Virus record (IMG/VR): IMGVR_UViG_3300042448_001478
Span: 1 to 29,067 of that record
Direction: 5' to 3' (one strand)
From: a virus
Length of the DNA stretch: 29,067 nt
A model generated the notes under the pieces. It did not search any database. It worked only from the letters and a program-made list of their open reading frames with translations, and was not told the DNA's origin. A program made the translations under genes and the position numbers. The stretch's first letter is position 1, and the number at the start of each line of letters is the position of its first letter. Below, piece by piece: positions 6,326 through 25,876 of the stretch.

Positions 6326-8407
6326 TTAATATATCGTTACATTTCCCGATGGTGTAATTGGGGCAACTGGGGCAACTGGGGCAACTGGGGTAACTGGTTT
6401 AATTTGAGCTCCACCTGTAAGTGCCAACATAATTTTATTTAATGTGCTTTGATATGTTTTGCAATTTACCTTTAAATTTAAATGTTTTTTTATCTTTCTT
6501 AAGCTATCACAATATTCTGAATTACGTACATCTCTTCGTTTTTTAGTCTCCACATCACCTGTACTTGAAGTACGACTTCTTGTACTTCCCTTAGTTCTTG
6601 TGCTTCCCTTAGTTCTTGTGCCTGAGTTATTTCTATCTCTTTTAATAACCTCTTGAGTACCATTTTTTGCGTCTTCACCAAATAAAACTCTTTGTGTTGA
6701 TCCTCCTGTAGTCCCACTAGATAAAAAATCAGCATCAATAACTACAGTATATTCAGTTACATTAGTTATTTTAAAATACCCATCATTACCACTTAATTGT
6801 TCATCTACAGTTTCAGGAGTAACTTTAATCCAATTACCAATAACATAATTATGTTTTTTACCTGAATAAACTTTATTTGAATCAGAACCTTTGTATTTTT
6901 TAATTAAATCAAAAGTTGGCTGATCAACAACACCATCAGTTCTTAATACTGGAGTAACCGTTTTACCATAATTGGTTTGAAATTCTTTTACCTTAGCCTC
7001 AGTTTCAGGTCCAAATGTTCCACCCTTTGCCCCTAACTGTTTTTGAATTAATGTAACATCGTCACCCTTAGATTTTTTTGCTGCCGATAATTCAAATGGG
7101 GGTGGTTGTATTGCCATTATTGATGCGTAAGTTGCATCATCAACAACACCATCAATTCTTAATGGTGTAGTAAGTTTAGCACCTTCTGTTTTTTGGTGAT
7201 TAATTACTGCAGCTAATGTCTTTGGTCCAAAAGTTGGATTTTTTTCCACAGGTAATCCTAATTTACTTTGTATCTTACCAACTTCTTCACCTGTATCTTT
7301 TAATTTCAATTCTACCTCAGTTAATAAATTGTGTCTGAAACCTTTATGTCTATAACTTTCATTTGTAAAATTTTCTTCACGAGCAGGATCTGTGGTTAAA
7401 GCAATTTTTCCACCACTATCTATAACCGCATTATAATCCCAAGCAATAGTTGATAGTGAGACTTCTAAATATTTACTTGGACAATTAAAGTTAACGGTAA
7501 TGCCTGACCCATCGTCTTTCATTATCACACCTTGATCAATAGCACTATCTTTAGGACCTTGTTTTTGAACCCCAAAAATAAAACTTTTAATAGTTGGATT
7601 GGTAACGTCTAATTTATAACCTACACCGTTAGGGAAATTTTTTACTGGTGTTTTTATTAATGCCGGATGATTAGTTATACAATCATATCCTTCAAATGAT
7701 ACTTGATTAGCGGAATTACCTCCACCACCAATTGTATACTCTATTGGTTTGTCTTTAAACCCTGATTTCTTCCACTCGGCATAAGCTTTATCTTTATTTA
7801 TTAATTTACCATCCCACCAACCAGATTTTTTTAATCCTTCATCCCATTTTATTTTATCTGTTGATCTTTTTTCGTCATAGTCTTTTTTAAGTGTTCCTGT
7901 TTTTTTAATTGTTCTACGAAATACTTCAAGGGATGGATTTGCTACATAAGTGTATGAATACAAACCACCCTCATACAATTTCTCCCAAAAATTATCATCA
8001 TCAGCATAACCTTTTTCTTGAGCAAGTTCTATTCCCAAACACCATTCTGGAAAACCTAAAGTATTAATTAGTCTTTTAACTTTATTTTCGTCAGTAAATG
8101 TTTTTGAATGTTCAATCCCAATACCTTCCACCGCCCGACTAGCAATAGTCTCATTTGCTGGACCATAATTTAAATTATTACAGTTTGATTTTAATTTAAT
8201 AATAAGTTGTGAAGCCGCAGTACTATTATTCGCCGGAGATAATGTTTTATTTAATTTTTCTGCTTTCAATAAACTACCATCATTTAAACAAAAACCACCA
8301 GCCGGACATTTTTCTAACGACTTTTCATCCTCATTTAACAAACCATAATTTTCATTTAGACTTTGTCTAACAATATTTTTTATAAAACTATCTATCATTC
8401 TTTTCAT
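6326..8407 (-). CDS. Large protein with two peptidoglycan-binding-like domains
   Basis: This 693-aa protein begins with a helical leader (MIDSFIKNIVRQSLNE) like those of five other proteins in the window. Residues ~40-130 look helical with cysteines. Two PG_binding_1-type units follow: ~372-430 (IQSKLGLP...FGPKTLAAV...LRIDGVVDDATY) and ~448-505 (LIQKQLGA...FGPETEAKV...LRTDGVVDQPTF). They differ enough to be an old duplication. Residues ~595-612 are a GSTRTK repeat, then a CDSLRKIKKHLN helix with paired cysteines, and the C-terminus is a PVA repeat ending SGNVTIY. No catalytic lysozyme or amidase motif is seen. It starts 3 nt after the 70-aa gene, which also holds one such domain. A virion or periplasm-acting cell-wall-binding protein is likely; the exact role is unknown. 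Confidence 0.85.
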   Translation of the reverse strand: MKRMIDSFIKNIVRQSLNENYGLLNEDEKSLEKCPAGGFCLNDGSLLKAEKLNKTLSPANNSTAASQLIIKLKSNCNNLNYGPANETIASRAVEGIGIEHSKTFTDENKVKRLINTLGFPEWCLGIELAQEKGYADDDNFWEKLYEGGLYSYTYVANPSLEVFRRTIKKTGTLKKDYDEKRSTDKIKWDEGLKKSGWWDGKLINKDKAYAEWKKSGFKDKPIEYTIGGGGNSANQVSFEGYDCITNHPALIKTPVKNFPNGVGYKLDVTNPTIKSFIFGVQKQGPKDSAIDQGVIMKDDGSGITVNFNCPSKYLEVSLSTIAWDYNAVIDSGGKIALTTDPAREENFTNESYRHKGFRHNLLTEVELKLKDTGEEVGKIQSKLGLPVEKNPTFGPKTLAAVINHQKTEGAKLTTPLRIDGVVDDATYASIMAIQPPPFELSAAKKSKGDDVTLIQKQLGAKGGTFGPETEAKVKEFQTNYGKTVTPVLRTDGVVDQPTFDLIKKYKGSDSNKVYSGKKHNYVIGNWIKVTPETVDEQLSGNDGYFKITNVTEYTVVIDADFLSSGTTGGSTQRVLFGEDAKNGTQEVIKRDRNNSGTRTKGSTRTKGSTRSRTSSTGDVETKKRRDVRNSEYCDSLRKIKKHLNLKVNCKTYQSTLNKIMLALTGGAQIKPVTPVAPVAPVAPITPSGNVTIY
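6361..6396 (+). repeat. Four tandem 9-bp repeats (GGGCAACTG)
   Basis: Three exact copies of GGGCAACTG and one GGGTAACTG follow each other. Read on the minus strand they encode the P-V-A/T repeat at the C-terminus of the 693-aa protein. Such short exact repeats can change copy number by slippage without breaking the frame. Confidence 0.9.
6579..6628 (+). repeat. 18-bp tandem repeat, about 2.8 copies
   Basis: Units at 6579-6596 and 6597-6614 (CTTGT[A/G]CTTCCCTTAGTT) are followed by a partial third. They encode a six-residue GSTRTK repeat (minus strand) that forms a basic Ser/Thr linker in the 693-aa protein. Confidence 0.85.
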
Positions 8408-8410
8408 ATC

Positions 8411-8623
8411 TTATCCTATATTTAAAGCATTTTTTATGGCCCTAAGCGTTAAAATACCCATTTTACCGTCAACATCTAAACCTGCACTTTTATTTGAGTT
8501 TAACCAACTCTGTATATCTGCAGTTGTATAATTACTTTGTTCAACCAAAATATTTGTTTTTACACCATGTTGACTCAAAATGTTTCTGATTTCACTTTCC
8601 GTTAATTTTATTTTAGGTAACAT
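8411..8623 (-). CDS. Small leader plus peptidoglycan-binding-like domain protein
   Basis: This 70-aa protein has two parts. Residues 1-28 are the shared leader (KIKLTESEIRNILSQ, then NILVEQ); KLTE-S and LVE-Q both resemble prohead-protease cut sites. Residues ~34-70 (DIQSWLNSNKSAGLDVDGKMG, then TLRAIKNALNIG) match the core of a PG_binding_1 unit: helix, D-G-K-x-G loop, then a T-x-x-A-I helix. It lies 3 nt upstream of the 693-aa gene in the same orientation, so the two are co-expressed. It is shorter than usual for the domain, and the first helix may be incomplete. Confidence 0.8.
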   Translation of the reverse strand: MLPKIKLTESEIRNILSQHGVKTNILVEQSNYTTADIQSWLNSNKSAGLDVDGKMGILTLRAIKNALNIG

Positions 8624-8651
8624 AAATATTGCTTATTAAATTTATTTATTA

Positions 8652-8660
8652 TATAAATAT
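8652..8660 (-). promoter_or_regulatory. ATATTTATA element, candidate phage promoter
   Basis: Minus strand ATATTTATA lies 28 nt before the ATG at 8623. The same [AC]TATTTATA word occurs before at least eight other starts here, several with the shared leader. It could be a -10-like late element; this is inference from recurrence only. Confidence 0.35.
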
Positions 8661-8682
8661 AACCATATAATAAAAAATAAAT

Positions 8683-8705
8683 AAAAAAAGGGAACCGAAG
8701 TTCCC
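8683..8705 (-). terminator. Intrinsic terminator with UUCG loop
   Basis: Minus strand GGGAAC-TTCG-GTTCCC followed by seven Ts: a perfect 6-bp stem with the very stable C(UUCG)G loop. It ends the transcript of the gene at 8771-9046. The stretch 8706-8770 between is its 3' UTR; I see no gene there. Confidence 0.9.
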
Positions 8706-8770
8706 ATTTTAGGCCCGACATTGAATATTTGTCTGACTCCACCACCTTATTTTTCTAAACAAGGAAACAA

Positions 8771-9046
8771 TTATATTGTTACCAACGCCTCAATTTTACT
8801 TTTAACTTGTTCAGTTAAGGAAACTTGTTTAACGTTTGTGAAAATAACAGAGTCTTTCAAAACTTTACTTGGAATATGAACCAAGAATGTATCACCATTG
8901 AAGAAACTTAGGTCTTCTTCTAATACCAATGATCCGTGCACCATCTTCAAAAAGATTTTGAATTGCGTCTGATCCATGAATGTCTCGTTGATTAAATCAC
9001 CAAACTTATCACTAACTACTTTTATATTAAAACCCATCTTATTCAT
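8771..9046 (-). CDS. Hypothetical 91-aa protein
   Basis: Unrecognised. It looks alpha/beta: MGFNIKVVSDKFGDLINETF, then a helix (DQTQFKIFLKMVHG), strands around DTFLVHIPSKVL and VIFTNVKQVSL, and a C-terminal helix. It has a complete host-type promoter whose -7 box ends 4 nt before the ATG at 9046, so the mRNA may be leaderless. An ATG 9 nt further in (MGFNIK) is an alternative start. A UUCG terminator follows, so this is a single-gene transcript. Confidence 0.7.
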   Translation of the reverse strand: MNKMGFNIKVVSDKFGDLINETFMDQTQFKIFLKMVHGSLVLEEDLSFFNGDTFLVHIPSKVLKDSVIFTNVKQVSLTEQVKSKIEALVTI

Positions 9047-9050
9047 ATAT

Positions 9051-9081
9051 CAAAGATACTAAATTATTTAACAATAACAAA
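9051..9081 (-). promoter_or_regulatory. Perfect Bacteroidota promoter TTTG-N19-TATCTTTG
   Basis: Minus strand TTTG (9081-9078), a 19-nt spacer, and TATCTTTG (9058-9051) match the Bacteroidota primary-sigma consensus exactly. The -33 half lies inside the end of the upstream gene (9064-9396). The box ends 4 nt before the ATG at 9046. Confidence 0.8.
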
Positions 9082-9396
9082 TTTTCTACCAACTTTTTTT
9101 AGTGTCCCAACAAAATCATTTTTATGGTCAATACCTCCCCAAAACCCAGATCCGTCTGACCAAACACCTTTTTTATTATTTTTATAAACCATTTCACCAT
9201 CAAATGTAATGTATTCAGGTTGGTCATTTTTAGTCAAAGCATAAGCTCTTGTTATTTCTCTATTCTCAGATGGTGAGTAATTACCTAACCAATCTTGTCT
9301 ACATAAAAATGTTGCCTGACCAACAATTATTTCTTGTTCATCAAGGGTTGCTTTCTTGTTAAATTTTTTCTTGAATGTGTTAATGTAAGTTCCCAT
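9064..9396 (-). CDS. Hypothetical 110-aa protein
   Basis: Unrecognised small soluble protein: basic start (MGTYINTFKKKFNKKATLDE), then GQATFLCRQDWLGNYSPS, EYITFDGEMVYKNNKKGVW, GFWGGIDHKNDF, and a basic end (LKKVGRKFVIVK). Many aromatic residues and short strands suggest a beta fold. The frame is open up to 9453, but that extension would translate the promoter at 9413-9444, so the ATG at 9396 is chosen, giving a ~10-nt leader. Its 3' end carries the -33 box of the next gene. Confidence 0.75.
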   Translation of the reverse strand: MGTYINTFKKKFNKKATLDEQEIIVGQATFLCRQDWLGNYSPSENREITRAYALTKNDQPEYITFDGEMVYKNNKKGVWSDGSGFWGGIDHKNDFVGTLKKVGRKFVIVK

Positions 9397-9412
9397 ATGT
9401 TTTTTATTTATA

Positions 9413-9444
9413 CAAATATACAAATAAAATTGACATCGCACAAA
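9413..9444 (-). promoter_or_regulatory. Bacteroidota promoter TTTG-N20-TATATTTG
   Basis: Minus strand TTTG (9444-9441), a 20-nt spacer and TATATTTG (9420-9413). The TTTG is formed by the end of the T tract of the preceding terminator. It drives the 110-aa gene. Confidence 0.75.
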
Positions 9445-9479
9445 AAATCCCATAGTTTTTTCTCAAAAAATATGGGATT
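9441..9479 (-). terminator. Long hairpin terminator after NUDIX gene
   Basis: Minus strand AATCCCATA pairs exactly with TATGGGATT, extended inward by six T-A pairs past one bulge to a GAG loop, and followed by TTTTTTG. It lies about 100 nt past the NUDIX stop. I see no gene in 9480-9580. Confidence 0.8.
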
Positions 9480-9580
9480 AATATTGATAAACCAATTAAT
9501 TCATAGAAAGGAAGGGTATTGGTTGTTTTTGTGTAATATAAATATACAATACTTTAGTAAAAGTCAATGAATTTTTACTT

Positions 9581-9991: not shown

Positions 9992-10014
9992 AATAAGAAT
10001 ATATTTATAACTAT
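9992..10014. promoter_or_regulatory. 23-nt divergent start region with ATATTTATA
   Basis: The whole spacer between divergent ATGs at 9991 (-) and 10015 (+) is AT-only except two bases. It contains ATATTTATA at 10001-10009 on the plus strand, 5 nt before the plus ATG; the minus strand reads TATAAATAT. Both transcripts must have very short or no leaders, or start inside the neighbouring gene. Confidence 0.4.
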
Positions 10015-10362: not shown

Positions 10363-10364
10363 TA

Positions 10365-11921
10365 TTATCTATTATTTGGTCTGAATCTCATTTGATTTGA
10401 TTTTACTGCCGACCTTGAAAATCTTAATCCTTGACCTTGTTTTCTAGCATTTCCTAATGACCTTGCGTGTTCGGTCATTTCAACCTCAAAATTTGGTTCA
10501 TATCTATTACCACTATCTTCATTAATTTTTTCTTTCAAAACTCTAACAAATTCATTCTGTACCATCTTGGTAAATTTAATATAAGGTGTATCATCTGACT
10601 CTTCATTATATTTGTATTTATCTTTAGGTGGTCTTTTAGATCTACCTAAATAACTTAAACCAGAAATGTTAGTAATACATTTATGTCCCCCACTATTAGA
10701 TTGAATTAAATCCCAAGCGTTTACACTAATAGAATCTAACATTCTCATTTCTTTATCTGTTAAATTACTGAATGGTTTTTTCATTGCTTCTTCAACATCA
10801 CCAAGTATATCCTCCCCATCTGCCATTTGTTTAAATTCTTTACCATATAAGGCGTTAAAATCTCTGAATGTAAAACCAACTGATTGTTCACCAAAACCTT
10901 TTCCTGATTCTGATATCCATTTTATTGTTGATAAAGGAATGTCCTTGTCTTGTAATTGTGATTTCCACTTGTTTAAGACATCATCTTTGATCTCACCTAA
11001 ATTTACACCTTTAAGTGCTCTTTCTTTCTTAAATGGATTACAAGACGCTTGTACCAATCCTAATGGCCAAGCAATCACCAAGAAGTCCGCATCAGGATTA
11101 TTTCTGAATGGTGTGTATCTATCATATGATCCTGGTTTCATCATACTACCTCCACCATACTGAACTATAATTTTATCATCAACTTTAACATTTTTGTGAG
11201 TTTTCATTGTTTGAACATAACTCTCTTTGTTTTTTTCTAAATCTCCAACATCAGCATAACTTTTTTCTTTGATCTGAGATCTGATGTTTAACAATATACT
11301 TAATAACGATGGATTTGCATTCATTACAATATTTTCCAAGAACCCTGGTTTGTTTTTGAATGCCAATAATAATTTATTAGCAACCATACCCATTATCATT
11401 TTGTTTTTTTGTAGTGATTGATCCTTATCTACCTTAAACAAATAGTTCATTACTTGTTCAGGACTAATATCATGTTGAGCATAATTTGCTGAATCCACCG
11501 TAGATATCAAAGTGATATCGTCAGATGGAAAAATATCTCTTGGAGATACGGTTTGAGATATTGTCTCAACGTTAGATCTTGAAGATTTAAAATTAGTTGA
11601 GGTACCTTGCTCAACTCCCGCTTGTGTGTCGTGGTGGTCAGTATGTATAATGAACATTGGTTTACCGTGAGCAAAGTCAACTAACACCGGCATAACATCA
11701 CCCTCAGCATCCAACTTCTTAATTGCAAATTCCTTATCACCATATTGAATGATCTCAGCATCTACCACCTTTATTCCGTTTTGTTCTAAGTAACTTTTCA
11801 TACCTAAAGCGGTGGTTACACCATCTAAATCTTGGTGAAAATATATCTTAGCCTCAGGGTATCTTTTAGATAATTCTCTGATGTTTCTTATTCCTGATTC
11901 CGTTATTAACTTTTTCTTCAT
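10365..11921 (-). CDS. DHH-family phosphoesterase-like protein with shared leader
   Basis: This 518-aa protein has the DHH superfamily layout: YFHQDLDGVTTALGM (D31, D33), LVDFAHG (80-86, D82), HTDHHDT (DHH 95-97) and STVDSANYAQHD (D143), followed by a distal SGGHKCITNISGL (409-421) that resembles the GGH motif of the DHHA1 substrate domain. The family includes RecJ nuclease and nanoRNA or cyclic-dinucleotide phosphodiesterases; the exact substrate here is unknown. It starts with KKLITESGIRNI, the leader shared with other proteins, where LITE-S is a good prohead-protease-like cut. A CTATTTATA element lies 3 nt upstream of the ATG. The C-terminus is basic and disordered. Cargo carried in the capsid is a possibility (inference). 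Confidence 0.8.
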   Translation of the reverse strand: MKKKLITESGIRNIRELSKRYPEAKIYFHQDLDGVTTALGMKSYLEQNGIKVVDAEIIQYGDKEFAIKKLDAEGDVMPVLVDFAHGKPMFIIHTDHHDTQAGVEQGTSTNFKSSRSNVETISQTVSPRDIFPSDDITLISTVDSANYAQHDISPEQVMNYLFKVDKDQSLQKNKMIMGMVANKLLLAFKNKPGFLENIVMNANPSLLSILLNIRSQIKEKSYADVGDLEKNKESYVQTMKTHKNVKVDDKIIVQYGGGSMMKPGSYDRYTPFRNNPDADFLVIAWPLGLVQASCNPFKKERALKGVNLGEIKDDVLNKWKSQLQDKDIPLSTIKWISESGKGFGEQSVGFTFRDFNALYGKEFKQMADGEDILGDVEEAMKKPFSNLTDKEMRMLDSISVNAWDLIQSNSGGHKCITNISGLSYLGRSKRPPKDKYKYNEESDDTPYIKFTKMVQNEFVRVLKEKINEDSGNRYEPNFEVEMTEHARSLGNARKQGQGLRFSRSAVKSNQMRFRPNNR

Positions 11922-12041
11922 AGTTATAAATAGTTTTCAACAAAAAAAAGTTTGCAGATAATAAATTAAAACTCAGAAATGGTGTGATCTCCCCATTCAT
12001 AATCATCTTCCATAATAAATAATTTGTTATAAATACTACGT

Positions 12042-12927: not shown

Positions 12928-13248
12928 TTAAATTACACTTGTTATTGCTTGAGCTAGTTTATATCCTGTGAAGGCACCTATTGCTGCCGAACCCGGTAAA
13001 ACAATAAACTTACCCAACATAGTTTCATATTTCTTCCTATTAACAATATAAGAAATTAATATGTAATAGGCAATGTAGTTGATTAAAACCAAAAAGTCCA
13101 ACTCTTTTGTAACAAAAACCACAATTGAATTTCCAAGAAATCCCCACATAAAATTAATAAGTGTTTCACGGATTAACTCACCAGGAGTTGTGATCGCATC
13201 TAATATCCCAATCTCTTTATTAAGTCCCTTTTTATTTTTAATTTCCAT
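12928..13248 (-). CDS. Small membrane protein (106 aa)
   Basis: After a charged N-terminus (MEIKNKKGLNKEIG) it has about three hydrophobic stretches: ~31-47 (LINFMWGFLGNSIVVFV), ~51-68 (DFLVLINYIAYYILISYIV) and ~81-104 (FIVLPGSAAIGAFTGYKLAQ), separated by NRKKYETMLG. No family is recognised. The small-residue-rich last helix resembles holin-like or small channel proteins, but there is no endolysin next to it. It overlaps the end of the RmlB gene by 11 nt, so it is translated from the same mRNA. Confidence 0.7.
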   Translation of the reverse strand: MEIKNKKGLNKEIGILDAITTPGELIRETLINFMWGFLGNSIVVFVTKELDFLVLINYIAYYILISYIVNRKKYETMLGKFIVLPGSAAIGAFTGYKLAQAITSVI

Positions 13249-14167
13249 ATTGTCTATCTAAGTAATCAAATAAATTTAAAAACTTAGGAATCTCACCATT
13301 TTTAGTTATATAATATTCTCTTAGTTTTGTACAATTAAGACCATATTTCCTATCATGACCTAATCTGTCTTCAACGTATTTAACATCAACCTCTTTGTTT
13401 AAAATATAAGAAATATTTTTAATAATGTCCAAATTTGTCACTCTGAAAGTTGTTCCAATATTATAAGTGGTGTTTACAATTTCATCGTCAAACATTAAAT
13501 CACAAATGACTTTTACATTATCATAAACATACATCCATTCTCTAACTTGTAATCCGTCACCATAAACTGGAATTGGTTTACCTTCACCGATAGATCTTGC
13601 AATTGTTGGTAAGAATTTTTCCTCAAACTGATGTTCACCAAAATTATTACAAGTTCTTGTGATGATATATGGTAAACCATAAGTTCTATTAGCAGATAAA
13701 ACTAACATATCAGATGCCGCTTTAGTTGCGGAATAATATGAGCTAGACTTTAAACTATCATCTTCAGTTGCCGTATGATTAATTGAAAAATGTTCATCCA
13801 TATCCCCATAAACCTCATCGGTTGAAATGTGTATGAATTTTTTAATATTTTTATTATTTCTTGATATCTCTAATAAATTAAATGTTCCTTCAACATTAGT
13901 TCTAACAAATGGTAGCCCATTCTTAATTGAATTGTCGACGTGAGACTCAGCAGCAAAGTGAACCATGTAATCAAAATCACCAAGTTCATCTGCCGTTACA
14001 TCACAAATGTCTTTTTGTAAAAAAGAAACATTGTGTTTAATATTCATTCTACGACCAGCGTATGTTAGTTTATCAACACAAAGAACATCACATTCAAAGT
14101 TATCTAATAGGTGATTTATAAATGCGGATCCTATAAACCCCGCTCCTCCTGTTACTACTATTTTCAT
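13238..14167 (-). CDS. rmlB: dTDP-glucose 4,6-dehydratase-like epimerase/dehydratase
   Basis: This 309-aa extended short-chain dehydrogenase has GGAGFIG (7-13) for NAD binding, VDKLTYAG (31-38), HFAAESHVDNS (70-80), TDEVYG (116-121, catalytic Asp-Glu), YxxxK at Y145-K149, and the substrate region NNFGEHQFEEKFLP with PVYGDGLQVREW. This combination is the RmlB signature: dTDP-glucose to dTDP-4-keto-6-deoxyglucose, the first committed step to rhamnose and other deoxysugars. The frame opens earlier at 14206, but the ATG at 14167 overlaps the upstream stop as ATGA and begins directly with the NAD-binding strand, so it is preferred. No other sugar gene is in the window; it may modify host surface sugars or phage DNA or protein. 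Confidence 0.9.
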   Translation of the reverse strand: MKIVVTGGAGFIGSAFINHLLDNFECDVLCVDKLTYAGRRMNIKHNVSFLQKDICDVTADELGDFDYMVHFAAESHVDNSIKNGLPFVRTNVEGTFNLLEISRNNKNIKKFIHISTDEVYGDMDEHFSINHTATEDDSLKSSSYYSATKAASDMLVLSANRTYGLPYIITRTCNNFGEHQFEEKFLPTIARSIGEGKPIPVYGDGLQVREWMYVYDNVKVICDLMFDDEIVNTTYNIGTTFRVTNLDIIKNISYILNKEVDVKYVEDRLGHDRKYGLNCTKLREYYITKNGEIPKFLNLFDYLDRQYGN

Positions 14168-14430
14168 TTTTTCTCTAGTGTTTCTATATGATGTTGCAAG
14201 TACCATAATGCTTTCTTAAGGTCCTGTAACTCTTTATCTTTTTTTCCAGCTCTTGAAATATACTTTACCGTATTTCCTAAACTAAATCCTAAATCCCAAG
14301 CATCAATAACTTTTATTGCCTCATAAAGATTATTCTCTCCTCCGTAATGGTTAGGATGATTAACTTGTTCTACTTTTGGTGGAGGACACTCACAAAATAC
14401 GTTAGCTCCACATACACATTCTTTTTCCAT
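14164..14430 (-). CDS. DUF3310 phage protein
   Basis: This 88-aa protein has the DUF3310 core: NHPNHYGG (24-31), EAIKVIDAWDLGFSLGNTVK, then YISRAGKKDKELQDLKKALWYL. DUF3310 proteins are widespread in phages and usually called nucleotide-kinase-like, without proven activity. Here the core is preceded by a cysteine-rich N-terminus, CVCGANVFCECPPP (C6, C8, C14, C16), which could bind zinc. Its start overlaps the glutamine synthetase stop by one base (TAATG) and its stop overlaps the RmlB start as ATGA, so all three are translationally coupled. Confidence 0.9.
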   Translation of the reverse strand: MEKECVCGANVFCECPPPKVEQVNHPNHYGGENNLYEAIKVIDAWDLGFSLGNTVKYISRAGKKDKELQDLKKALWYLQHHIETLEKK

Positions 14431-15548
14431 TATTCTTCTCTATATTCTTTTAATAATTCATCATTTGAAATTGTTCCGTATTTTTCATTAAGACCTTCCA
14501 TATCAACATCCTTACTCATCATTATTTTAACATCGTAGATTTGATCGGTAGTATTTAAAGATATGTCAATTTCTTTAATAATTTTGTATGGGTCAGCATT
14601 TGATCCAGGTCTTCTATCCTCAACATAACCTTTCCAATTTTTTGCAGTATCTCTTGGAATTCTAATTGATGCTCCACGATCTGAAACCCCCCAACTAAAT
14701 TTATCAATTGATTGTGTTTCAAATTTACCAGTTAAACGAAGATTGTTATCTGACCCGTAAGCTTTAATGTGAGCCTCATGTCTTACTTCAAACGCATTAA
14801 ATAATGACATAAAATATTTTTCGTTACCATCATTTCTCATTTTATCTGTGGAGAAATTTGCATGAAGTCCAGATCCGTTCCATTCTCCTTTTTGAATTGG
14901 TTTTGGATGTAGATTAACCCCATAATTATATTTTTCAGAGATTTTATATAAAAAGTACCTGGTCATCCACAAATCATCACCCGCCTTTAATTTACCTTTT
15001 GAAAATACTTGGTATTCCCATTGACCTAATGCAACCTCAGCGTTGATCCCTGTAATATCAATTCCGTATTTTAAACACATATCCATATGTTCTTCAACAA
15101 AATCTCTTCCTGCAACATATTCACCAACACCACAATAATATTTACCTTGTGGTTCCAAGTTGTTTTCATTGTGCCCTAAAATACATTTGTTATTTCTATC
15201 GTAGATAAAATATTCTTGTTCAAACCCAAACCACAAATCTTCTTGATCTCCAATTAGTTTTGATCTTGTGTTAGTTTCGTGTGGTGTACCATCAGAATTC
15301 ATTACTTCACATAACACGTAAATTGTGTTTGTATTATCACAAAAATAATGTCTAACAGGTATTAAAATACAATCAGAACTATTACCTTCCGCTTGTAATG
15401 TTGATGACCCATCAAAGTTCCATTCAGGGAAATTATTTAGAACTAAACAATTTTTAATTTGCTCATAGTCCACAATTTTAATCTTACTTCTAAGGTTTGG
15501 CTCCGGTATATATCCGTCAATCCACACATATTCTAACTTAACTTTCAT
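14430..15548 (-). CDS. Glutamine synthetase, type II (eukaryote-like)
   Basis: This 372-aa enzyme makes glutamine from glutamate, ammonia and ATP. All GSII motifs are visible: WNFDGSST (43-50), FGFEQEYF (107-114), EVALGQWEYQ (171-180), NGSGLHANFST (224-234), RLTGKFET (271-278), RGASIRIPR (291-299) and YVEDRRPGSNADPY (308-321). Its length is normal and no catalytic signature is broken. It resembles the short GSII form rather than the 470-aa GSI or the long GSIII common in Bacteroidota. It overlaps DUF3310 and the 60-aa gene by 1 and 4 nt. A phage-borne copy would supply glutamine, the nitrogen donor for purine, CTP and amino-sugar synthesis, during infection (inference). Confidence 0.93.
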   Translation of the reverse strand: MKVKLEYVWIDGYIPEPNLRSKIKIVDYEQIKNCLVLNNFPEWNFDGSSTLQAEGNSSDCILIPVRHYFCDNTNTIYVLCEVMNSDGTPHETNTRSKLIGDQEDLWFGFEQEYFIYDRNNKCILGHNENNLEPQGKYYCGVGEYVAGRDFVEEHMDMCLKYGIDITGINAEVALGQWEYQVFSKGKLKAGDDLWMTRYFLYKISEKYNYGVNLHPKPIQKGEWNGSGLHANFSTDKMRNDGNEKYFMSLFNAFEVRHEAHIKAYGSDNNLRLTGKFETQSIDKFSWGVSDRGASIRIPRDTAKNWKGYVEDRRPGSNADPYKIIKEIDISLNTTDQIYDVKIMMSKDVDMEGLNEKYGTISNDELLKEYREE

Positions 15549-16559: not shown

Positions 16560-18095
16560 TTAGTCAGTTCTCATTACAACAAAAGTTGAATCATTAACTG
16601 AAACGGTATCATATTCATTGTTGTAACTACTTATTACACTATAATCATTCTCATCTATTAAATCATTTATTAAACTTTGTCTATCTATAAAATTATTATA
16701 GTCATCACCCATTTGATCTAACCAACGCATTGGGTCATCTCTAATTTCTCCTAACCTATCCTCAACGGCTTCTTCAACCTCATCGTCATTTAAATCACCA
16801 TCTGGGTCGTCTCTTATATCTTGTATTTCAACATCAATGTCTTCTATTTCACTTTCAATTTCTTCAACCCTTGATTCATTATCCGACTCATGTTCACCAT
16901 CCTCATCTTCATCTTCATAAGTTACTGACTCAACTTTTTTACCGTTTTGGTAAATTTGCCATTTATTTTCAGACCATTCAACAATTAAAATATTATCCAT
17001 ATAATCATTAAATTTGAAGTATTTTAAATCTTCAATATCTTCCTCTATAAGAGGAGATCTAGCTCCACTTGAAATTAAATATTTTTCGGTTTGAAGTGAC
17101 CTTTTTTGGTTTTGTAATTTTTCAATTTCTTTATCTTGTTTAACACTAGTTTCCCTACTAACATCATAATTTTCAGGATCGTCCATAACCCATTCACGAA
17201 CCGCGTCTTCATAATATTCTGCAACTTCGTCACCATCAATATGGTAAGATAAAGTATTTTTATCAAAATTACTTAAATCATTTAACAATTCATCATAATA
17301 CTCTTTAAGAGAACTATCCGCTTCATTTTCAGTTCCAACCGCATAAACATAACCACTAGCATCATTATGTATTGACCTAAATGTATGTAAGTCATAATGG
17401 GAACTTTCAGGTATTAAATCATACACATCATTATCTTTGTCCTTAAGTTCATCAATCTCGGATTGCAAATCATTTTGTTCAATCTCCAATTCATCAACAA
17501 TTTCAGAATCTTCCTCGTTATCTATTCTTTCCTCAAGTTCTTCCATTCTTTTTTCTAAATCTTCTAATTCTTCACGTTCTGGTCCATCTAAATATCCAAT
17601 ATCACCTTCTTGAACCATATAGTCAAAAACTGCGTTTGCCATTAAACCTTCTTTATCAATATTAGAATTATTTAGATCCCATTCACCATCTTCTCTTCTT
17701 TGTCTTGCTTCAGCCCTTAAAGCCATTTCTTTTCTTCTATCAAGTTCTTTACTATATGGTGTGTCCCAATAACTTAAACTACCACCAACTGTAACACCTT
17801 CAAGACTTACAATACCTGTGGAACGAACATTTAAATCACCAGTCACAATTAACTCACCCAAATTAGTTATTTGTTTTAAACCAATTAAAGATAAGCTACC
17901 ATTAACTCTTATTTTTTTACCCTTGAAATCAGGAAACTTAGGAATCGCTTGTGCTTTGTAATTAACAGACTTTAGTAAATCAATATATTCTTGGGGTGTA
18001 AAATCTTCATACTCAACACTATCATCTTGTTCAATAATAATATTCTTTATTAATCCAATTAAATCACTCTCGTTAATCCTTACAACTTTTTTCAT
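16560..18095 (-). CDS. Strongly acidic coiled-coil protein with shared leader
   Basis: This 511-aa protein begins KKVVRINESDLIGLIKNIIIEQ, the clearest example of the leader shared by six proteins here. Residues ~60-112 form a short beta-solenoid-like run (LIGLKQITNLGELIVTGDL, LEGVTVGGSL). The rest is extremely rich in Asp and Glu with long coiled-coil stretches (~170-225 and ~400-450) and a basic segment LDRRKEMALRAEARQRRED. No enzyme motif is seen. It could mimic DNA, act as a scaffold or be packaged cargo; none is proven. An ATATTTATT element lies 5 nt before the ATG. It is divergent from the small CxC protein at 18178. Confidence 0.8.
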   Translation of the reverse strand: MKKVVRINESDLIGLIKNIIIEQDDSVEYEDFTPQEYIDLLKSVNYKAQAIPKFPDFKGKKIRVNGSLSLIGLKQITNLGELIVTGDLNVRSTGIVSLEGVTVGGSLSYWDTPYSKELDRRKEMALRAEARQRREDGEWDLNNSNIDKEGLMANAVFDYMVQEGDIGYLDGPEREELEDLEKRMEELEERIDNEEDSEIVDELEIEQNDLQSEIDELKDKDNDVYDLIPESSHYDLHTFRSIHNDASGYVYAVGTENEADSSLKEYYDELLNDLSNFDKNTLSYHIDGDEVAEYYEDAVREWVMDDPENYDVSRETSVKQDKEIEKLQNQKRSLQTEKYLISSGARSPLIEEDIEDLKYFKFNDYMDNILIVEWSENKWQIYQNGKKVESVTYEDEDEDGEHESDNESRVEEIESEIEDIDVEIQDIRDDPDGDLNDDEVEEAVEDRLGEIRDDPMRWLDQMGDDYNNFIDRQSLINDLIDENDYSVISSYNNEYDTVSVNDSTFVVMRTD

Positions 18096-18177
18096 ATTAC
18101 AATAAATATTTAATGGTTTACAAAATATGATACTTCTCTGATATTTATAATTAAATAAACCTATTAAAACAAATATT
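18096..18177. promoter_or_regulatory. Divergent intergenic region with ATATTTATA elements
   Basis: The 82-nt spacer has ATATTTATA at 18141-18149 on the plus strand (28 nt before the ATG at 18178) and ATATTTATT on the minus strand at 18109-18101 (5 nt before the ATG at 18095). These match the element found before other leader-type genes. Confidence 0.35.
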
Positions 18178-20257: not shown

Positions 20258-20545
20258 TTATCTTTCGTAAAACTCTTTGATGATTTTTACACCTTCATCA
20301 AGTTCATCATAATCTCTTTCAGGAGCATAAAGTTCAGTTTTAGAATTTTCTTGTCCTGGTGACTCAATTAACATAAATGCCGGAACATATTCATTATTAG
20401 TAATTGAAACAAACATATCGTATTCATCGCTATGTTCGTCAATATCTCTATCAATATAAGGTATATCTTCTTTATCCAACATTTCCTTAAGTGTTTTACA
20501 ATGACCACATGATTTCATTGAAAATATGATTGCTAACTTATCCAT
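20258..20545 (-). CDS. Glutaredoxin-like protein
   Basis: This 95-aa protein starts KLAIIFSMKSCGHCKTL with a CGHC active site (C13, C16), followed by DIPYIDRDID and EYVPAFMLIE, where the Val-Pro gives the cis-proline of the thioredoxin fold. The 10-residue insert GQENSKTELY near residue 65 is unusual. Glutaredoxins use glutathione or a reductase to reduce disulfides such as that of ribonucleotide reductase. It overlaps the thioredoxin gene by 8 nt, so both redoxins are co-expressed. Confidence 0.8.
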   Translation of the reverse strand: MDKLAIIFSMKSCGHCKTLKEMLDKEDIPYIDRDIDEHSDEYDMFVSITNNEYVPAFMLIESPGQENSKTELYAPERDYDELDEGVKIIKEFYER

Positions 20546-20852
20546 TGATTAATTCTGTTAGGATCCCGTTTATTTGACCCTCATTCATCATACCAACTTT
20601 AGTATCAATGATGTTACCATTTTGGAACACTTTAATTGTTGGGATACTTCTTATCCCCAATGATGCCCCAAATTCTCTATTTAAATCTACATTCATTGTA
20701 CACATTTCAACGTTTGATGTGTTTTGAGATGAAACTTTTTCAAATAAAGGTTTCATCATTTTGCACGGACCACACCATTCGGCCCAGAATTCTACAATAA
20801 CTTTTTTACCTGAGTTAATTTTTTCTTGTAAATCTACACTACTAATTTCCAT
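20538..20852 (-). CDS. Thioredoxin
   Basis: This 104-aa protein has the full thioredoxin core: VIVEFWAEWCGPCKMMKP with the canonical WCGPC (C27, C30), the D-x-N strand (CTMNVDLN), RSIPTIKVF with the cis-proline P71, and a C-terminal helix. Length is normal. It reduces protein disulfides; in phages it often feeds ribonucleotide reductase or serves as a polymerase processivity factor, but neither partner is in the window. It starts 2 nt after the stop of the 107-aa gene. Confidence 0.92.
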   Translation of the reverse strand: MEISSVDLQEKINSGKKVIVEFWAEWCGPCKMMKPLFEKVSSQNTSNVEMCTMNVDLNREFGASLGIRSIPTIKVFQNGNIIDTKVGMMNEGQINGILTELING

Positions 20853-21217: not shown

Positions 21218-21224
21218 GTTTCTT

Positions 21225-21980: not shown

Positions 21981-22005
21981 ATAATTAGTTTTTTAGATTA
22001 CCTTA

Positions 22006-22036
22006 CAAAGATAGTCAATTTTTTGGATTCTACAAG
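22006..22036 (-). promoter_or_regulatory. Host-type promoter CTTG-N19-TATCTTTG
   Basis: Minus strand TATCTTTG (22013-22006) with CTTG (one mismatch to TTTG) at exactly 19 nt spacing. It lies 25 nt before the DUF932 ATG. Confidence 0.65.
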
Positions 22037-22053
22037 CCTTTACATAAAAAAAA

Positions 22054-22350
22054 TCAATTAAGTATGATATCCCCAAACTTAGTCTTTTGAATAAATCCTT
22101 TAACTTTGTTTGTATAACTTAACTTTTGGTTTAATTCAGGTGATTTAAGATCAACCACAACATCAATAATTTGTTGTTTGGTTAATACAAAGTCTTCACC
22201 TTTCTCATAGTTCTCAATAGATTTTTCTTTCATCTTTTGAAAGAATTCTTCTTTTTGTACCTCACCAACAAGATCCATAAAATCACCTGGATTTTTTTCA
22301 AAAAAGGTTATTAGTTGACTAATATAAATTTCTATGTCTACGTTCATCAT
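22054..22350 (-). CDS. Hypothetical 98-aa protein
   Basis: Small helical protein: MMNVDIEIYISQLITFF, GDFMDLVGEVQKEEFFQKM, then EDFVLTKQQIIDVVVDL and NKVKGFIQKTKFGDIILN. No family recognised. The frame opens at 22371 inside the preceding gene, but the ATG at 22350 overlaps its stop as TAATG, as at other junctions in this window, and is preferred (ATG at 22347 is possible). It is co-transcribed with the 629-aa protein. No terminator hairpin is seen before 22014. Confidence 0.7.
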   Translation of the reverse strand: MMNVDIEIYISQLITFFEKNPGDFMDLVGEVQKEEFFQKMKEKSIENYEKGEDFVLTKQQIIDVVVDLKSPELNQKLSYTNKVKGFIQKTKFGDIILN

Positions 22351-24239
22351 TAAGATCTTATAGGTCCACAATGTTTCTTCAATTCAGGAGGGAAATTAAT
22401 AAACCAGAACCCTTCATCTTCTGTCATGTATTCTTCTAATTTTGCGGGTATTCTCATATTAGGATTTGAATGCTCCGTTGAGAAGAAGTTCAAACAATAC
22501 AATTCACCAAACGCTTCAGGAATACTTTCCAATTGTGGGTTATTAGGTAAGTTTATAAATTTTAATTTGGTACAATTTCCAATACTTTCAGGGATTGACT
22601 TAACCATATTATCAATAATCAATGTTTTTAATTCGGTTAATTTACCAATACTTTCCGGTATATCCAAGGCAATTGGAGTTTTACTTGTATTTTCCATTTG
22701 GATCATAGTTGTATTAGTTGGGATGTGTTGAAAGAAATCATCAAACCCAAATAATGCAACATACTTGGAGTTATCATCTTTTGGATATTCAAGACCAACA
22801 TAACCACTACTACTAACTCCGGCTAATTGACCTGAGAATTTTTCTCTTAATTTTTTCTTATTTTCTTTCATTATAGGACTATTGATGAATGCAATATCGG
22901 CATCATTCAATTGACCTAAACTTTTTGTCATCAACCCTTGAAGTTTTCTTGCCGCATAATATTTCAAAACGCTAGGTTCAGAATCATTGATCATTTCAGC
23001 AGTCAAGTCCATTCCCAACCCTAAGTATTTGTTTTTAAGATTTTCGGTAAAGTTACGATAAATTTCATTACCATTATTTCTATATGTTAAATCAGGACTT
23101 GAAAGCTCAAGCCACATTTCGGCCGCTTGTTCACTACCAAGTTCTTTAATCGCATCTTTATTGATGGTAGTATTTTTATAGTCATTCAGTACTTTTTGTT
23201 CAGCAGCACTCAATGGATCCGCAACAAACAAATGTTCTTTACCTTTTAATTTTGGAACTTTACTTACAATTGTACTCCATTCTTCTCTCCTATGACCTGA
23301 ATAACCTCCTGACATATTTTGACCATCCGCAATTCGTTTTCCGCCATAAGGCTCAACTAATATGACAACTGAATAGTTAAGGTCACCAAATGGTTTATCT
23401 TTATCAATAACATAATAAATTGTTAAGTTATTACCCAAACGATAATTGTAATACATATTACCACCACCTGATTTAGATATACACCAACTTCTTCCGTTAG
23501 CCAATTTAATACATTGTTCCTTACCACTTGGTTTGAAGATTAATAAGTTATCATCATCATATATTGTTTCAATGTCAGAATAATCATCTTTCTTATCATT
23601 AATATCATCAGTTAAATCACCCATACCATCTAATGTATGTTCAAGTTCATCAAAACTCATAAACAACAATGGTGGTAAATTTGCAGGTAACCTATGATAT
23701 AGATCCAAATATGTTGACACATAATAAATTAATTGTTCAGGTGTTACATTAACCTTATCATCTTTAAATTTCTTAAGTGCCGCTGATGTTAACATAGTAT
23801 TAAACTTACTCTGTAAAAACTCAACCAATTTCAAATAAGGCATTTTAAGAACGTCTCTTTGATTTATAGGTAGGATTGGAAACAATTCGTAAAACTTACG
23901 TAATGCCAATTTAACCGCATTTTTGTCGGCACCTTTATTGGCTTCCATATATTTTTTGAATATACTTTTTTCTTGTTTTTTAATCTCTTTTGATAAAACA
24001 ATGTTCTTAACAATAGTATAAGTTAATTTGGTGATATCTCTTTGATCTTGAGGTAACCCATTTTTATATTTCTCAAATGCGTTAATAACTGCCGTAATTT
24101 GTTCTTCAGTATCTCTAGTTGTAGGTTTAAATTTGTCAATTAAAAATTTAATGACTTTTTCAGACATTGCCTCACTTACAATACGTTTACCGTTTGTGTT
24201 TTCTTTTATGACAGATGTTAATACCTTAATTAATTCCAT
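22350..24239 (-). CDS. Large protein: leader, WC domain and leucine-rich repeats
   Basis: This 629-aa protein has three recognisable parts. Residues 1-25 (ELIKVLTSVIKEN, then RIVSEAM) fit the shared leader; VSE-A is a good prohead-protease-like cut. Residues ~225-310 hold the recurring domain: IYDDDNLLIFKP (226-237), GRSWCISK (249-256), MYYNY and IYYVIDKDK, then a glycine-rich end. It matches the order in the 312-aa protein at 1613-2551. Residues ~525-590 are two to three leucine-rich repeats (LDIPESIGKLTELKTL, SIPESIGNCTKLKFI, SIPEAFGELYCL), a protein-binding fold. No catalytic motif is known for the WC domain. An ATATTTATA element lies 13 nt before the ATG. Confidence 0.85.
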   Translation of the reverse strand: MELIKVLTSVIKENTNGKRIVSEAMSEKVIKFLIDKFKPTTRDTEEQITAVINAFEKYKNGLPQDQRDITKLTYTIVKNIVLSKEIKKQEKSIFKKYMEANKGADKNAVKLALRKFYELFPILPINQRDVLKMPYLKLVEFLQSKFNTMLTSAALKKFKDDKVNVTPEQLIYYVSTYLDLYHRLPANLPPLLFMSFDELEHTLDGMGDLTDDINDKKDDYSDIETIYDDDNLLIFKPSGKEQCIKLANGRSWCISKSGGGNMYYNYRLGNNLTIYYVIDKDKPFGDLNYSVVILVEPYGGKRIADGQNMSGGYSGHRREEWSTIVSKVPKLKGKEHLFVADPLSAAEQKVLNDYKNTTINKDAIKELGSEQAAEMWLELSSPDLTYRNNGNEIYRNFTENLKNKYLGLGMDLTAEMINDSEPSVLKYYAARKLQGLMTKSLGQLNDADIAFINSPIMKENKKKLREKFSGQLAGVSSSGYVGLEYPKDDNSKYVALFGFDDFFQHIPTNTTMIQMENTSKTPIALDIPESIGKLTELKTLIIDNMVKSIPESIGNCTKLKFINLPNNPQLESIPEAFGELYCLNFFSTEHSNPNMRIPAKLEEYMTEDEGFWFINFPPELKKHCGPIRS

Positions 24240-24282
24240 AATAAGTTTTTAATATAAATATTCCAATAGTATAAAAAAATGA

Positions 24283-25122
24283 TTAGTAATTCATTATTAA
24301 TAATTCCTCACCCATATTTTGTTTTGTTCCCTTTTTTGCCGCTGCCGCTTTAGCAAACTCTTTTTTCTCCCATTTGTACTGATCTTCAGGAAACCATTCG
24401 TGTAATAATTCAAAATCATAGTACGATAAACTGAATTTACCTTCCATATTTATTAAAGATTTTGAAAGTCTTTCGTGGTCTTCCCTATCAAAATCATGAT
24501 TAGAATAATAGTTTTCAGTCTTCCAATATGGTGGATCCACATAGAAGTAAGTTGTTGGTGAATCATACTTTTCAATCACCTCAGCAAAATCCATATTCTC
24601 TACATCACTTATTCTTAAAAAATGTTCAACCCAATCAGGTTTCATTAATTTATCTCGGAATGTTAAGTATTTAGATTTGTACTTACCTTTTAAGTCAATG
24701 AAAGAACTTTTTTCAGGTTTAGATCCTGAGAACACTTGTGTTAAAACATACGCATATTTAGCAGCAACATCATAATTACCAGGTTCTACCCTGAAATTTT
24801 CATCAAATATTTCAGCCTGAAAGCTGATAAATTGTTCTTTATATATTGATGGTGTAATTTCCACACCAAATTGTTGACATGGGATTGCGTTGATTGATTC
24901 CAATAATCTTTCAGGGTTCTTAATACATTCAAATAAATTATGGTTAAGTGGGTTGAAGTCATTATACACAACTTTCTTTAGATTTGGGAACTGACTTAGA
25001 TCCATATTAAAGAAACACCAAAACATCCCACCGAATGTTTCAACATATGTTTCCATATCTTTATCATAGAAAGGGACTATCCACTTTCCTATCTTACTCT
25101 TACCTCCGATATAACTTAACAT
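24283..25122 (-). CDS. DNA adenine methylase, D12 (Dam) class
   Basis: This 279-aa protein has the D12-class order: motif X YIGGKSKIGKWI (4-15), motif I VETFGGMFW (27-35), VVYNDFN (51-57) and motif IV YVDPPYW (173-179), then SLSYYDF. It should methylate adenine N6 in a short site. Motif I is unusual: FGGMFW instead of the common FAGGGA or FGGGGS. Near the C-terminus is an alanine/lysine run (FAKAAAAKKGTKQ) before GEELLIMNY. It lies 43 nt before the 629-aa gene in the same direction. No matching restriction enzyme is present, so it is a solitary methylase. Confidence 0.88.
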   Translation of the reverse strand: MLSYIGGKSKIGKWIVPFYDKDMETYVETFGGMFWCFFNMDLSQFPNLKKVVYNDFNPLNHNLFECIKNPERLLESINAIPCQQFGVEITPSIYKEQFISFQAEIFDENFRVEPGNYDVAAKYAYVLTQVFSGSKPEKSSFIDLKGKYKSKYLTFRDKLMKPDWVEHFLRISDVENMDFAEVIEKYDSPTTYFYVDPPYWKTENYYSNHDFDREDHERLSKSLINMEGKFSLSYYDFELLHEWFPEDQYKWEKKEFAKAAAAKKGTKQNMGEELLIMNY

Positions 25123-25187
25123 AGATAAAATATAAGATATTTATGGTAATCAGTCAATGGAAGTTTTTTAAAAAAAAATACATATAT

Positions 25188-25218
25188 TTTGGCAGAACCA
25201 AAAAAAACACTATCTTTG
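25188..25218 (+). promoter_or_regulatory. Perfect Bacteroidota promoter TTTG-N19-TATCTTTG
   Basis: TTTG (25188-25191), a 19-nt spacer, and TATCTTTG (25211-25218) on the plus strand match the consensus exactly. The next good start codon (25385) is 166 nt away, so the transcript begins with a long non-coding stretch. Confidence 0.8.
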
Positions 25219-25222
25219 TATT

Positions 25223-25370
25223 GTTGATGTGGGTAACACTACTGAAAACAAGGATGTCAGTACTCCTATTTAACAATCTGAACGCCAGGTGTAGGGTGTG
25301 TCTATACGGGTTAATTACCTCAACCTAATCGGTGAAAAAAATTAAGACCTCTCATTTTTGGGGGGTCTTA
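25223..25370 (+). ncRNA. Candidate structured non-coding RNA
   Basis: A perfect host-type promoter points at this stretch. It is richer in G and C than its surroundings and lacks a convincing ORF: the only frame (25227-25328, 33 codons) uses codons such as CTG, CTC, AGG and GGG that neighbours avoid. Visible hairpins: TACTGA (25240-25245) with TCAGTA (25257-25262), six exact pairs; GTGTAG (25289-25294) with CTATAC (25302-25307), one G-U pair; GGTT with AACC (25309-25325); and a final nine-pair stem (25343-25351 with 25362-25370) that could end the RNA, though it lacks a plus-strand T run. It may be a free phage small RNA or a leader of the 163-aa gene. It matches no RNA family I know. Confidence 0.4.
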
Positions 25371-25379
25371 CTATTTATA
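25371..25379 (+). promoter_or_regulatory. CTATTTATA element before the 163-aa gene
   Basis: CTATTTATA directly follows the last hairpin of the candidate RNA and ends 5 nt before the ATG at 25385. It is one of the clearest cases of the element that recurs close to start codons in this window. Confidence 0.35.
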
Positions 25380-25384
25380 GTAGT

Positions 25385-25876
25385 ATGAAATTACTTAATA
25401 CGATAAAAAATCTTATCCTTGAGGGAAGACAGTTATTGGACAGATATGATGTTGGTGGTATAAACGTTGACATTTTTTATAATGACCATTCAAATATAGC
25501 GATAAGTAATTCATCATATGGTAGACAATCAATTGAGGATATAAATGAATCAATTATTGACATTTTAGACATTATTGTTGAGGTATCTATAAACATACTT
25601 AATTCTACGGGTAAAATACAAGGTAAAGATCATTCTATTTTAATTAAAGACTATATGATAGGTGTTGATTACCATGTTTGGGTTACCCAATCTAAAAATG
25701 GTGATTTATTTTTAACTATTAATACATCAATTGGTCACCCAAAAAGTTTACCAATTGGTCAAAATGATAAAACAATAATTATAACTAAATCAGGAGATAC
25801 TCTAATAAAAGAACAATTTAAAAATAATAACTTTACTAAAATTGTAAAAGGTGATATTATTTTATATATAATATAA
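25385..25876 (+). CDS. Hypothetical 163-aa protein with shared leader
   Basis: The protein begins MKLLNTIKNLILEGRQLLD: LILE-G is the best match in the window to a T4-type prohead-protease site, and IKNLILE parallels IKNIIIE of the 511-aa protein. The rest is beta-rich and soluble (VGGINVDIFYNDHSNIAIS, then DYMIGVDYHVWVTQ, GDLFLTINTSIGHPKSLP, DKTIIITKSGDTLI); no family recognised. The frame extends to a TTG at 25358, but that would translate the CTATTTATA element and part of a hairpin, so the ATG at 25385 is chosen. The 52-aa gene follows after 3 nt. Confidence 0.75.
   Translation: MKLLNTIKNLILEGRQLLDRYDVGGINVDIFYNDHSNIAISNSSYGRQSIEDINESIIDILDIIVEVSINILNSTGKIQGKDHSILIKDYMIGVDYHVWVTQSKNGDLFLTINTSIGHPKSLPIGQNDKTIIITKSGDTLIKEQFKNNNFTKIVKGDIILYII

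Follow-up and report, generated by a model that had tools for sequence, protein, structure and literature searches.

The DNA analysed in this work, a 29,067-nt stretch of the IMG/VR virus record IMGVR_UViG_3300042448_001478 (hereafter the window), encodes proteins with unrelated bodies that start with similar short N-terminal leaders. Our results suggest that this leader is a lineage-specific capsid-targeting peptide cleaved off by a protease, an explanation that we infer, packaging, cutting, and injection included, with a probability of about 0.78; as part of the same explanation, the window would hold four to six head-cargo proteins, as predicted from their leaders. In the mechanism that we propose, a large group of T4-like phages would use the leader as its capsid-targeting peptide; many of these phages apparently belong to the bS21 group. 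The helix of the leader, ∼12 to 15 residues long and capped by a TESD box in the canonical form, would dock the cargo on the prohead core, and a protease of the gp21 family would cut after the glutamate at the end of this helix, the site being [ILV]xE and the next residue Q, A, S, N, T, or E, to judge from the candidate sites. These sites also suggest that the cut would free the mature protein inside the head, and some cargo, perhaps the cell-wall-binding and lysozyme-like proteins, might be ejected together with the DNA, this being the weakest step of the proposal.

A shared N-terminal module

A leader at the N-terminus of unrelated bodies, as claimed in a preliminary description of six window proteins, is found well beyond the window. 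Indeed, 244 proteins with a TES-type start, collected from 137 virus loci (176 of them from contigs fetched with a DNA pattern of the leader), fall into 143 body clusters. When 230 distinct leaders are aligned on TES, the column information is high from residue 1 to residues 22-23 and then drops below 0.4 bit, with a glutamate at residue 22 in 165 leaders and I, L, or V at residue 20 in 195. The position of the motif is equally telling: an expression for TES occurs 46 times at residues 4 to 13, twice at residues 14 to 61, and 11 times beyond, among 781 open reading frames (ORFs; 167,159 residues) with distinct starts, many of them orthologous, taken from 86 sources (80 contigs fetched with a leaderless 262-residue protein, five fetched with the leader-bearing protein 6326-8407, and the window). 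The expected restriction of profile matches to protein starts was also observed, since the full profile gave 34 N-terminal matches and a single internal one over seven genomes (1107 ORFs), some of its training contigs deriving from the same records as these genomes; the internal match follows an inner methionine, the start of this ORF having probably been called too early. Up to 14 carriers per genome were recognized in this way (genome G020).

A motif-free search led to the same module. Non-homologous proteins sharing an N-terminal segment (score of at least 45) form 108 pairs in G020, 13 in G016, and 41 in G011, versus 0 to 2 pairs per control stretch, with three such stretches for each genome (0, 2, and 1 in G020). 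Since this test uncovered further recurrent N-termini in those genomes (MNLQExIRKILRE, MKKFLITEEEKSRILGMHKSAIAREFLGE|Q, and one around INxYITE|Q), the earlier view that the whole set can be read from a single motif has to be corrected: one genome has several leader families.

At the DNA level, a degenerate pattern of the first 12 leader codons matches at least 120 stretches in virus contigs, several of which contain two to four copies, and four stretches in 84,980 bacterial and archaeal genomes; within the two collections scanned, the leader is nearly confined to viruses. Because synonymous codons are mixed at conserved residues (e.g., for T8: ACA 61, ACC 32, ACT 32, ACG 10), what is conserved is the peptide. 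A tblastn search of named phages with the 23-residue leader consensus returned no match, a weak test with so short a query. The cultured relative immuto has no full-profile match and displays, by eye, other recurrent N-termini ending in [LI]xE. In the 484-kb phage record LR756508, yet another leader (approximately M[KR]hTExKLRxIIKEEIxxVLxE, an expression written after seeing these ORFs) is present on 13 of the 54 ORFs of a 41.5-kb stretch that contains its protease and capsid genes, and the leader principle may therefore be wider than the T4-like group under study. Near the capsid gene of LR756508 (L281:25721-31600), several similar proteins have short [LI]xE leaders, some of them followed by YRGT; by eye, these YRGT proteins recall ADP-ribosyltransferases such as T4 Alt, without support from Pfam.

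Candidate cleavage site

Phage T4 gp23 loses 65 residues (PMC9026906, in part), and its site E65|A66 aligns to [LI][NY]E followed by A or S in all 22 capsid proteins compared here (capsid site E60|A/S). For the leader, the preliminary description had proposed a cut at LTE|S. This is less likely than a cut further downstream, because TES varies to EG, EN, EH, EQ, or ED, or is lost, in orthologues of protein 16560-18095, the final glutamate of the same leader (E22) is kept in 97% of 32 aligned relatives, and half leaders are devoid of TES. The predicted cut thus most likely falls after the glutamate ending the helix, at residue 22 of the canonical leader. The proposed rule, (L/I)xE before A, G, or S, agrees in its first part with the residues prevailing at positions 20 and 22, and departs from the data in its second, the next residue being often a glutamine. 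The string [LIV]xE|Q is enriched at residues 7 to 37 in G020 (4.1-fold, p = 2.6e-6), G016 (5.0-fold, p = 5.6e-4), and G011 (3.2-fold, p = 8.8e-3).

Leaders on head-module genes

Leaders are also found on genes of the head module itself. In the family that we call 'YMFFSNLEQ', all 16 members have a leader ending in E, in the full TES form for five and in a half form for 11 (e.g., MRNIDNIIRKVIKE|Q), so that full and half leaders swap on one and the same head-module protein. A small conserved head-module protein with no assigned role (YMFFSNLEQMKRQC...; L098:5628-6134, and the head modules of 16 records) displays interchangeable full and half leaders. In a family adjoining the terminase, leaders of 7 to 43 residues end with E|A in 11 of 12 members and E|Q in the remaining one (sites picked by eye). 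In a family adjoining the capsid gene, variable leaders are followed by starts such as E|ATGDSSGSRGSY, which resemble that of the mature capsid protein, E|ATSDGSSGSF; the expression used was matched by 14 of the 18 members, but not by the other four. Finally, the best leader-like stretch of gp22-like scaffold proteins is conserved in 11 of 22 (e.g., IRQLVKESLKEQ near residue 38) and ranks in the best 0.05% of internal windows. As these proteins are orthologous and the chance per protein amounts to several percent, this is only a hint that the leader may mimic the scaffold.

The gp21-family protease and capsid genes

The search for these genes covered 79 leader-bearing records. A first set of 42 was picked mostly for length (39 leader-pattern matches and three leader-carrying kin of the window), and a second set of 37 further pattern matches was added later as a check. 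In the first set, Peptidase_S77 (gp21 family) was found in 22 records, gp23 over the cut-off in the same 22, and Portal_T4 in 21 of those; the other 20 have neither a portal nor gp23 over the cut-off, one of them (G008) having a weak gp23 match. In the second set, S77 is present in 14 records, gp23 in 13, and both in 12; three records have one of the two (G073, G086, and G097), and in each of them no more than ∼3 kb separates the match from the contig end towards which the partner is expected. Taken together, S77 occurs in 36 of 79 records and in 34 of the 35 with gp23 over the cut-off, the sole gp23 record without it stopping at the contig edge, and both genes are present in each of the 11 records longer than 200 kb. 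The 262-residue marker of the window is present in six of the 22 protease-bearing records of the first set, with 67% identity in G041.

Some of these head modules show peculiarities. The 269-kb record G102 (source of L205) contains two S77 and two gp23 genes, at about 31-35 kb and 233-238 kb, and is either a double T4-type head module or a joined assembly. Intein_splicing matches were found in the G020 portal (L264:2873-5968, E = 2.4e-16) and in the S77 protease of LR756508 (L281:4505-6229, E = 9.5e-5), and in G005 and G041 the portal matches are split or partial and lie on long ORFs, which suggests insertions in these records as well.

Leader-bearing proteins of the window

The 44 window genes were scored with a leader profile made of 110 leaders, each from a different body cluster. 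Most of these leaders belong to proteins unrelated to those of the window, and all were chosen with the final glutamate; empirical p values were drawn from 1708 internal stretches. The features concerned are as follows.

16560-18095, minus strand: leader-bearing protein of 511 residues, no family over the cut-off and no fold match
18030-18095, minus strand: its canonical leader MKKVVRINESDLIGLIKNIIIE|Q, profile p < 0.0006
22350-24239, minus strand: leader-bearing protein with a weak leucine-rich repeat (LRR) match (PF23598, E = 1.7e-5, under the family's own cut-off)
24171-24239, minus strand: half leader MELIKVLTSVIKE|N of this LRR-like protein, with a second candidate site RIVSE|A, profile p = 0.0006
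6326-8407, minus strand: leader-bearing protein with a PG_binding_1 domain at residues 448-500 (PF01471, E = 2.5e-8)
8330-8407, minus strand: leader MKRMIDSFIKNIVRQSLNE|NYGLLNE| of this peptidoglycan-binding protein, with two candidate sites, profile p = 0.0006
25385-25876, plus strand: leader-bearing protein without family, profile p = 0.0023 for its leader
25385-25423, plus strand: its half leader MKLLNTIKNLILE|G, profile p = 0.0023
8411-8623, minus strand: 70-residue protein whose body matches the C-terminal part of a 423-residue G020 protein with a different N-terminus
8540-8623, minus strand: its leader of another type, MLPKIKLTESEIRNILSQHGVKTNILVE|Q, outside the helix profile; relatives keep [VIL][LI]xE|[QEG] here
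10365-11921, minus strand: DHH-like protein (PF01368, E = 0.0012, under the cut-off), uncertain member of the leader set
11898-11921, minus strand: possible very short leader MKKKLITE|S of the DHH-like protein, uncertain and outside the helix profile; relatives keep [LI]xE|[ST]GIRD

The six ORFs described earlier, with their N-terminal peptides, are all present at the starts given, the ATG at 25385 lying inside a longer ORF that the ORF program called from a TTG at 25358. The idea of one leader on all six holds for four, which match the helix-plus-Glu profile (each with an empirical p ≤ 0.0023), and breaks down for 8411-8623 (p = 0.13), which has a leader of another type, and for the DHH-like protein (p = 0.17), whose membership is uncertain; the only element common to these two is [LI]TES. 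Likewise, the two recurring elements of the preliminary description exist without being on all six proteins, the DHH-like protein having no second element.

In the AlphaFold2 model of protein 16560-18095, residues 1 to 7 have a pLDDT (predicted local distance difference test) below 50 and the leader forms a separate, low-confidence helix (residues 9-23), while the body is confident from about residue 29-31, with blocks mostly near 90; a Foldseek search with the model gave no fold match (best E = 0.92). In the LRR-like family, the eight N-termini of distant relatives all finish their hydrophobic stretch with [IV]xE|[NQV]. The family of 6326-8407 (six relatives) has 18 invariant residues in the first 26 versus 96 in the remaining 667. 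The leader type of 8411-8623 is kept in relatives as KLTES[ED]IRxILxxHGVKxN[IVL][LI]xE|, and a relative of the protein at 25385 (L180), aligned from that methionine, begins with MNLLPLLKSIIVE|S. Since the DHH-like domain of 10365-11921 starts at about residue 26, this protein has at most a very short leader; a search with it gave matches only in four uncultured huge-phage records. A tblastn search of named phages with three window proteins returned no match. As for the labels first proposed, one of the two 'cell-wall binders' (6326-8407) is backed by its Pfam match and the other has none, and the DHH and LRR labels each correspond to a match that stays under the cut-off. The leader was also considered as a HeH/LEM or SAP domain, a candidate discarded with E values of 0.06-0.08, under the cut-off.

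Besides, some sequence segments are shared between otherwise different proteins. The C-terminal tail of the DHH-like protein (residues 481-518) shares 66% identity over 38 residues with a central segment of another G020 protein, 430 residues long (at 97421, starting with MNLQEHIRKVLKE), and the G020 homologue of the leaderless window protein 1613-2551 shares ∼58 residues (38% identity) with the LRR-like protein. By eye, other window genes recall a glutamine synthetase (14430-15548), a nucleotide-sugar epimerase (13238-14206), DnaJ (26035-26943), and thioredoxins/glutaredoxins (20258-20852).

Bodies carried by the leader

Leader bodies are mostly without known function and without replication enzymes. 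With one leader protein per cluster (143), Pfam recognized 12 families, including PG_binding_1 in three proteins, LysM and phage lysozyme in one protein, SET, UPF0227, and weaker matches, and no replication or nucleotide enzyme, in keeping with the expectation that clearly cytoplasmic enzymes would not carry the leader. PHROGs yielded 21 families on leader proteins, 12 of them named endolysin and originating from few proteins, as well as weak terminase and tape-measure matches. The controls were length-matched leaderless proteins of the same contigs, after dropping homologues of leader bodies and TES-like starts. They gave 54 Pfam families, of which the 25 listed include ribonucleotide reductase, SmpB, DnaB, thioredoxin, and sigma-70, but also Glucosaminidase and Peptidase_M23, and 102 PHROGs families, with several endolysins among the 25 listed. 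Since cell-wall domains are thus found in the controls too, we do not claim their enrichment among leader bodies.

An upstream motif common to leader genes

In the window, TATTTAT precedes five of the six leader genes, the sixth (6326-8407) coming 3 nt after 8411-8623, versus four of the 38 others (p = 6.4e-4), at the following positions.

18102-18108, minus strand: TATTTAT upstream of 16560-18095
24254-24260, minus strand: TATTTAT upstream of 22350-24239
11926-11932, minus strand: TATTTAT upstream of 10365-11921
8653-8659, minus strand: TATTTAT upstream of 8411-8623
25372-25378, plus strand: TATTTAT upstream of the ATG at 25385

For the genome-wide tests, 'leader' genes comprised profile matches and genes picked with a looser start expression. 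The motif TATTTATA or ATATTTAT is found at most 60 nt upstream of 28 of 37 leader genes versus 52 of 301 others in G020 (p = 1.1e-12), and of 10 of 16 versus 20 of 120 in G011 (p = 2.2e-4). When G020, G016, and G011 are pooled and genes preceded by 40 nt or more of non-coding DNA considered, it is present for 25 of 28 leader, 17 of 39 head, and 58 of 227 other genes (leader versus other, p = 5.5e-11; head versus other, p = 0.019). In front of leader and head genes, matches resembling ATATTTATA peak at distances of ∼12 and 20-29 nt. The T4 late promoter TATAAATA was discarded as the motif (4% of head, 11% of leader, and 7% of other genes), the actual one being TATTTATA on the coding strand. This motif may serve as a late promoter or, given that an S21-like gene is present in many of these phages, as a signal for translation. 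In bS21 phages, core structural genes are highly expressed in presumed late infection (PMC9723584, in part).

Weighing the explanations

A number of observations weigh against a packaging leader that is cut. Residue 22 is not E in 65 of the 230 leaders, and Q follows the site in 87 of them, whereas capsid sites read E|A/S; E|Q is not enriched in immuto (0.6-fold). Ungapped identity before and after the site is uninformative (0.22/0.33 in family 9, 0.24/0.26 in family 16, and 0.48/0.20 in family 11). Leader proteins include bodies with no assigned place of action (SET, UPF0227, and a weak PIN match) and a weak terminase PHROG, and the upstream motif is weakly enriched in G016 (seven of 12 leader genes versus 28 of 111, p = 0.023; head genes, p = 0.19). 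Three pattern-match records of between 120 and 175 kb (G021, G029, and G094) have neither protease nor gp23. Moreover, the gp21-like protease expected elsewhere in the genome, present in other leader-bearing records as described above, is missing from the window and from 28 kin records (longest, 95.7 kb), which are fragments without a head module. Such short contigs would miss the protease, since it lies ∼123 kb from the 262-residue marker in G020; the window is largely collinear with G020 at 34-89 kb, and the G020 protease and capsid genes are at 168-172 kb.

Among the rivals, docking of an uncut leader to the head or another virion structure, the glutamate being a helix end or part of a binding face, is improbable in our view. 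The TESD-type capping box and amphipathic helix seen by eye, the helix of the model, the leaders without E22, and a glutamine after the site unlike T4 would all suit it; however, the glutamate outlasts the rest of the leader in relatives, different leader families of one genome end alike in [IL]xE|Q, and a head-module family changes its leader while keeping E followed by a similar mature start. We hold it for distinctly less probable that the leader sends late proteins to some site in the host cell, e.g., the division site or the envelope, where they would act in lysis or on the cell wall, independently of the head; the few bodies of known kind, which include PG_binding_1, LysM, and phage lysozyme, might suggest this. 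Against this reading, neither a signal peptide nor a membrane helix is visible by eye, cell-wall domains also occur in the controls while most bodies have no known function, and the same leader sits on head-module genes, a related one (by the expression written afterwards) surrounding the capsid and protease genes of LR756508. Conservation of a translation start or regulatory element in DNA or RNA, with the peptide as a by-product, could account for the upstream motif common to leader genes but is largely contradicted by the mixed synonymous codons, which makes it very improbable. Finally, a fortuitous resemblance between N-termini rich in lysine and leucine, or paralogy, is hardly credible: two window proteins do fall outside the profile, but the motif-free pairs of G020 versus its controls and the body clustering contradict it.

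A cleaved capsid-targeting leader, our preferred explanation, leads to a broader idea whose chances we see as evenly balanced: in an open packaging code, the several leader families of a genome would all be substrates of a single protease, and a late protein would become head cargo whenever it gains a leader. It would then be possible to tell from sequence which proteins uncultured large phages inject, a set that here already counts 143 body clusters, nearly all without known function, and Gln at the start of mature proteins would be its hallmark. Phage-injected proteins can disarm hosts, and they are hard to find because no domain is common to them. If the leader is a packaging tag, its 22-residue profile would yield, for many large uncultured phages, a list of putative head cargo, mostly without known function, and which proteins enter the cell with the DNA would become testable.

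Comparison with known systems

In the literature on capsid targeting and prohead proteases, searched by titles, abstract openings, and words with most subscription journals not covered, neither the leader strings nor such a leader were found. The bS21-encoding phages, predicted to infect Bacteroidetes (PMC9723584, in part), have the same head module as the records studied here, in which an S21-like ORF lies on the strand opposite the protease in 18 of 22 (S21 identity being confirmed by Pfam for one record, E = 8.5e-10); they differ in that the part of PMC9723584 used here makes no mention of a leader. In the phiKZ-like phage SPN3US, gp45 and gp225 have N-terminal propeptides of 20 and 24 residues that are cut after Glu by the prohead protease (PMC10052503, in part). 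Short N-terminal peptides with Glu at the cut are common to both systems, the cut being predicted from sequence for our leaders. The SPN3US motif is AxE, with no shared leader family described in that part of the source, and a phiKZ-type AxE cut does not suit our leaders, given I, L, or V at the third residue before the site (P3) in 195 of 230.

The closest parallel is the capsid-targeting sequence (CTS) of T4, whose function and L/I-X-E rule are documented for four cargo proteins (PMC9026906, in part). With Asp in place of the last Glu, processing of the T4 peptide is inhibited and targeting still occurs (PMC9026906). As with IPI, IPII, IPIII, and Alt, processed by gp21, a short N-terminal peptide ending in L/I-x-E is borne by unrelated bodies, and genes of the gp21, gp23, and gp20 families are present in the same genomes as the leaders. 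However, our leaders have 22 residues versus 10 in T4 (MKTYQEFIAE|A in ipII and ipIII, MELITELFDE|D in Alt), another sequence with a TESD box, Val also at P3, and often Gln after the site, and they reach up to 14 carriers per genome and 143 body clusters in one sample. By eye, no likeness to MKTYQEFIAE extends beyond the end motif, and we do not claim homology to the T4 peptide. By analogy, the leader probably works like the T4 CTS and would be its counterpart in this group of phages.

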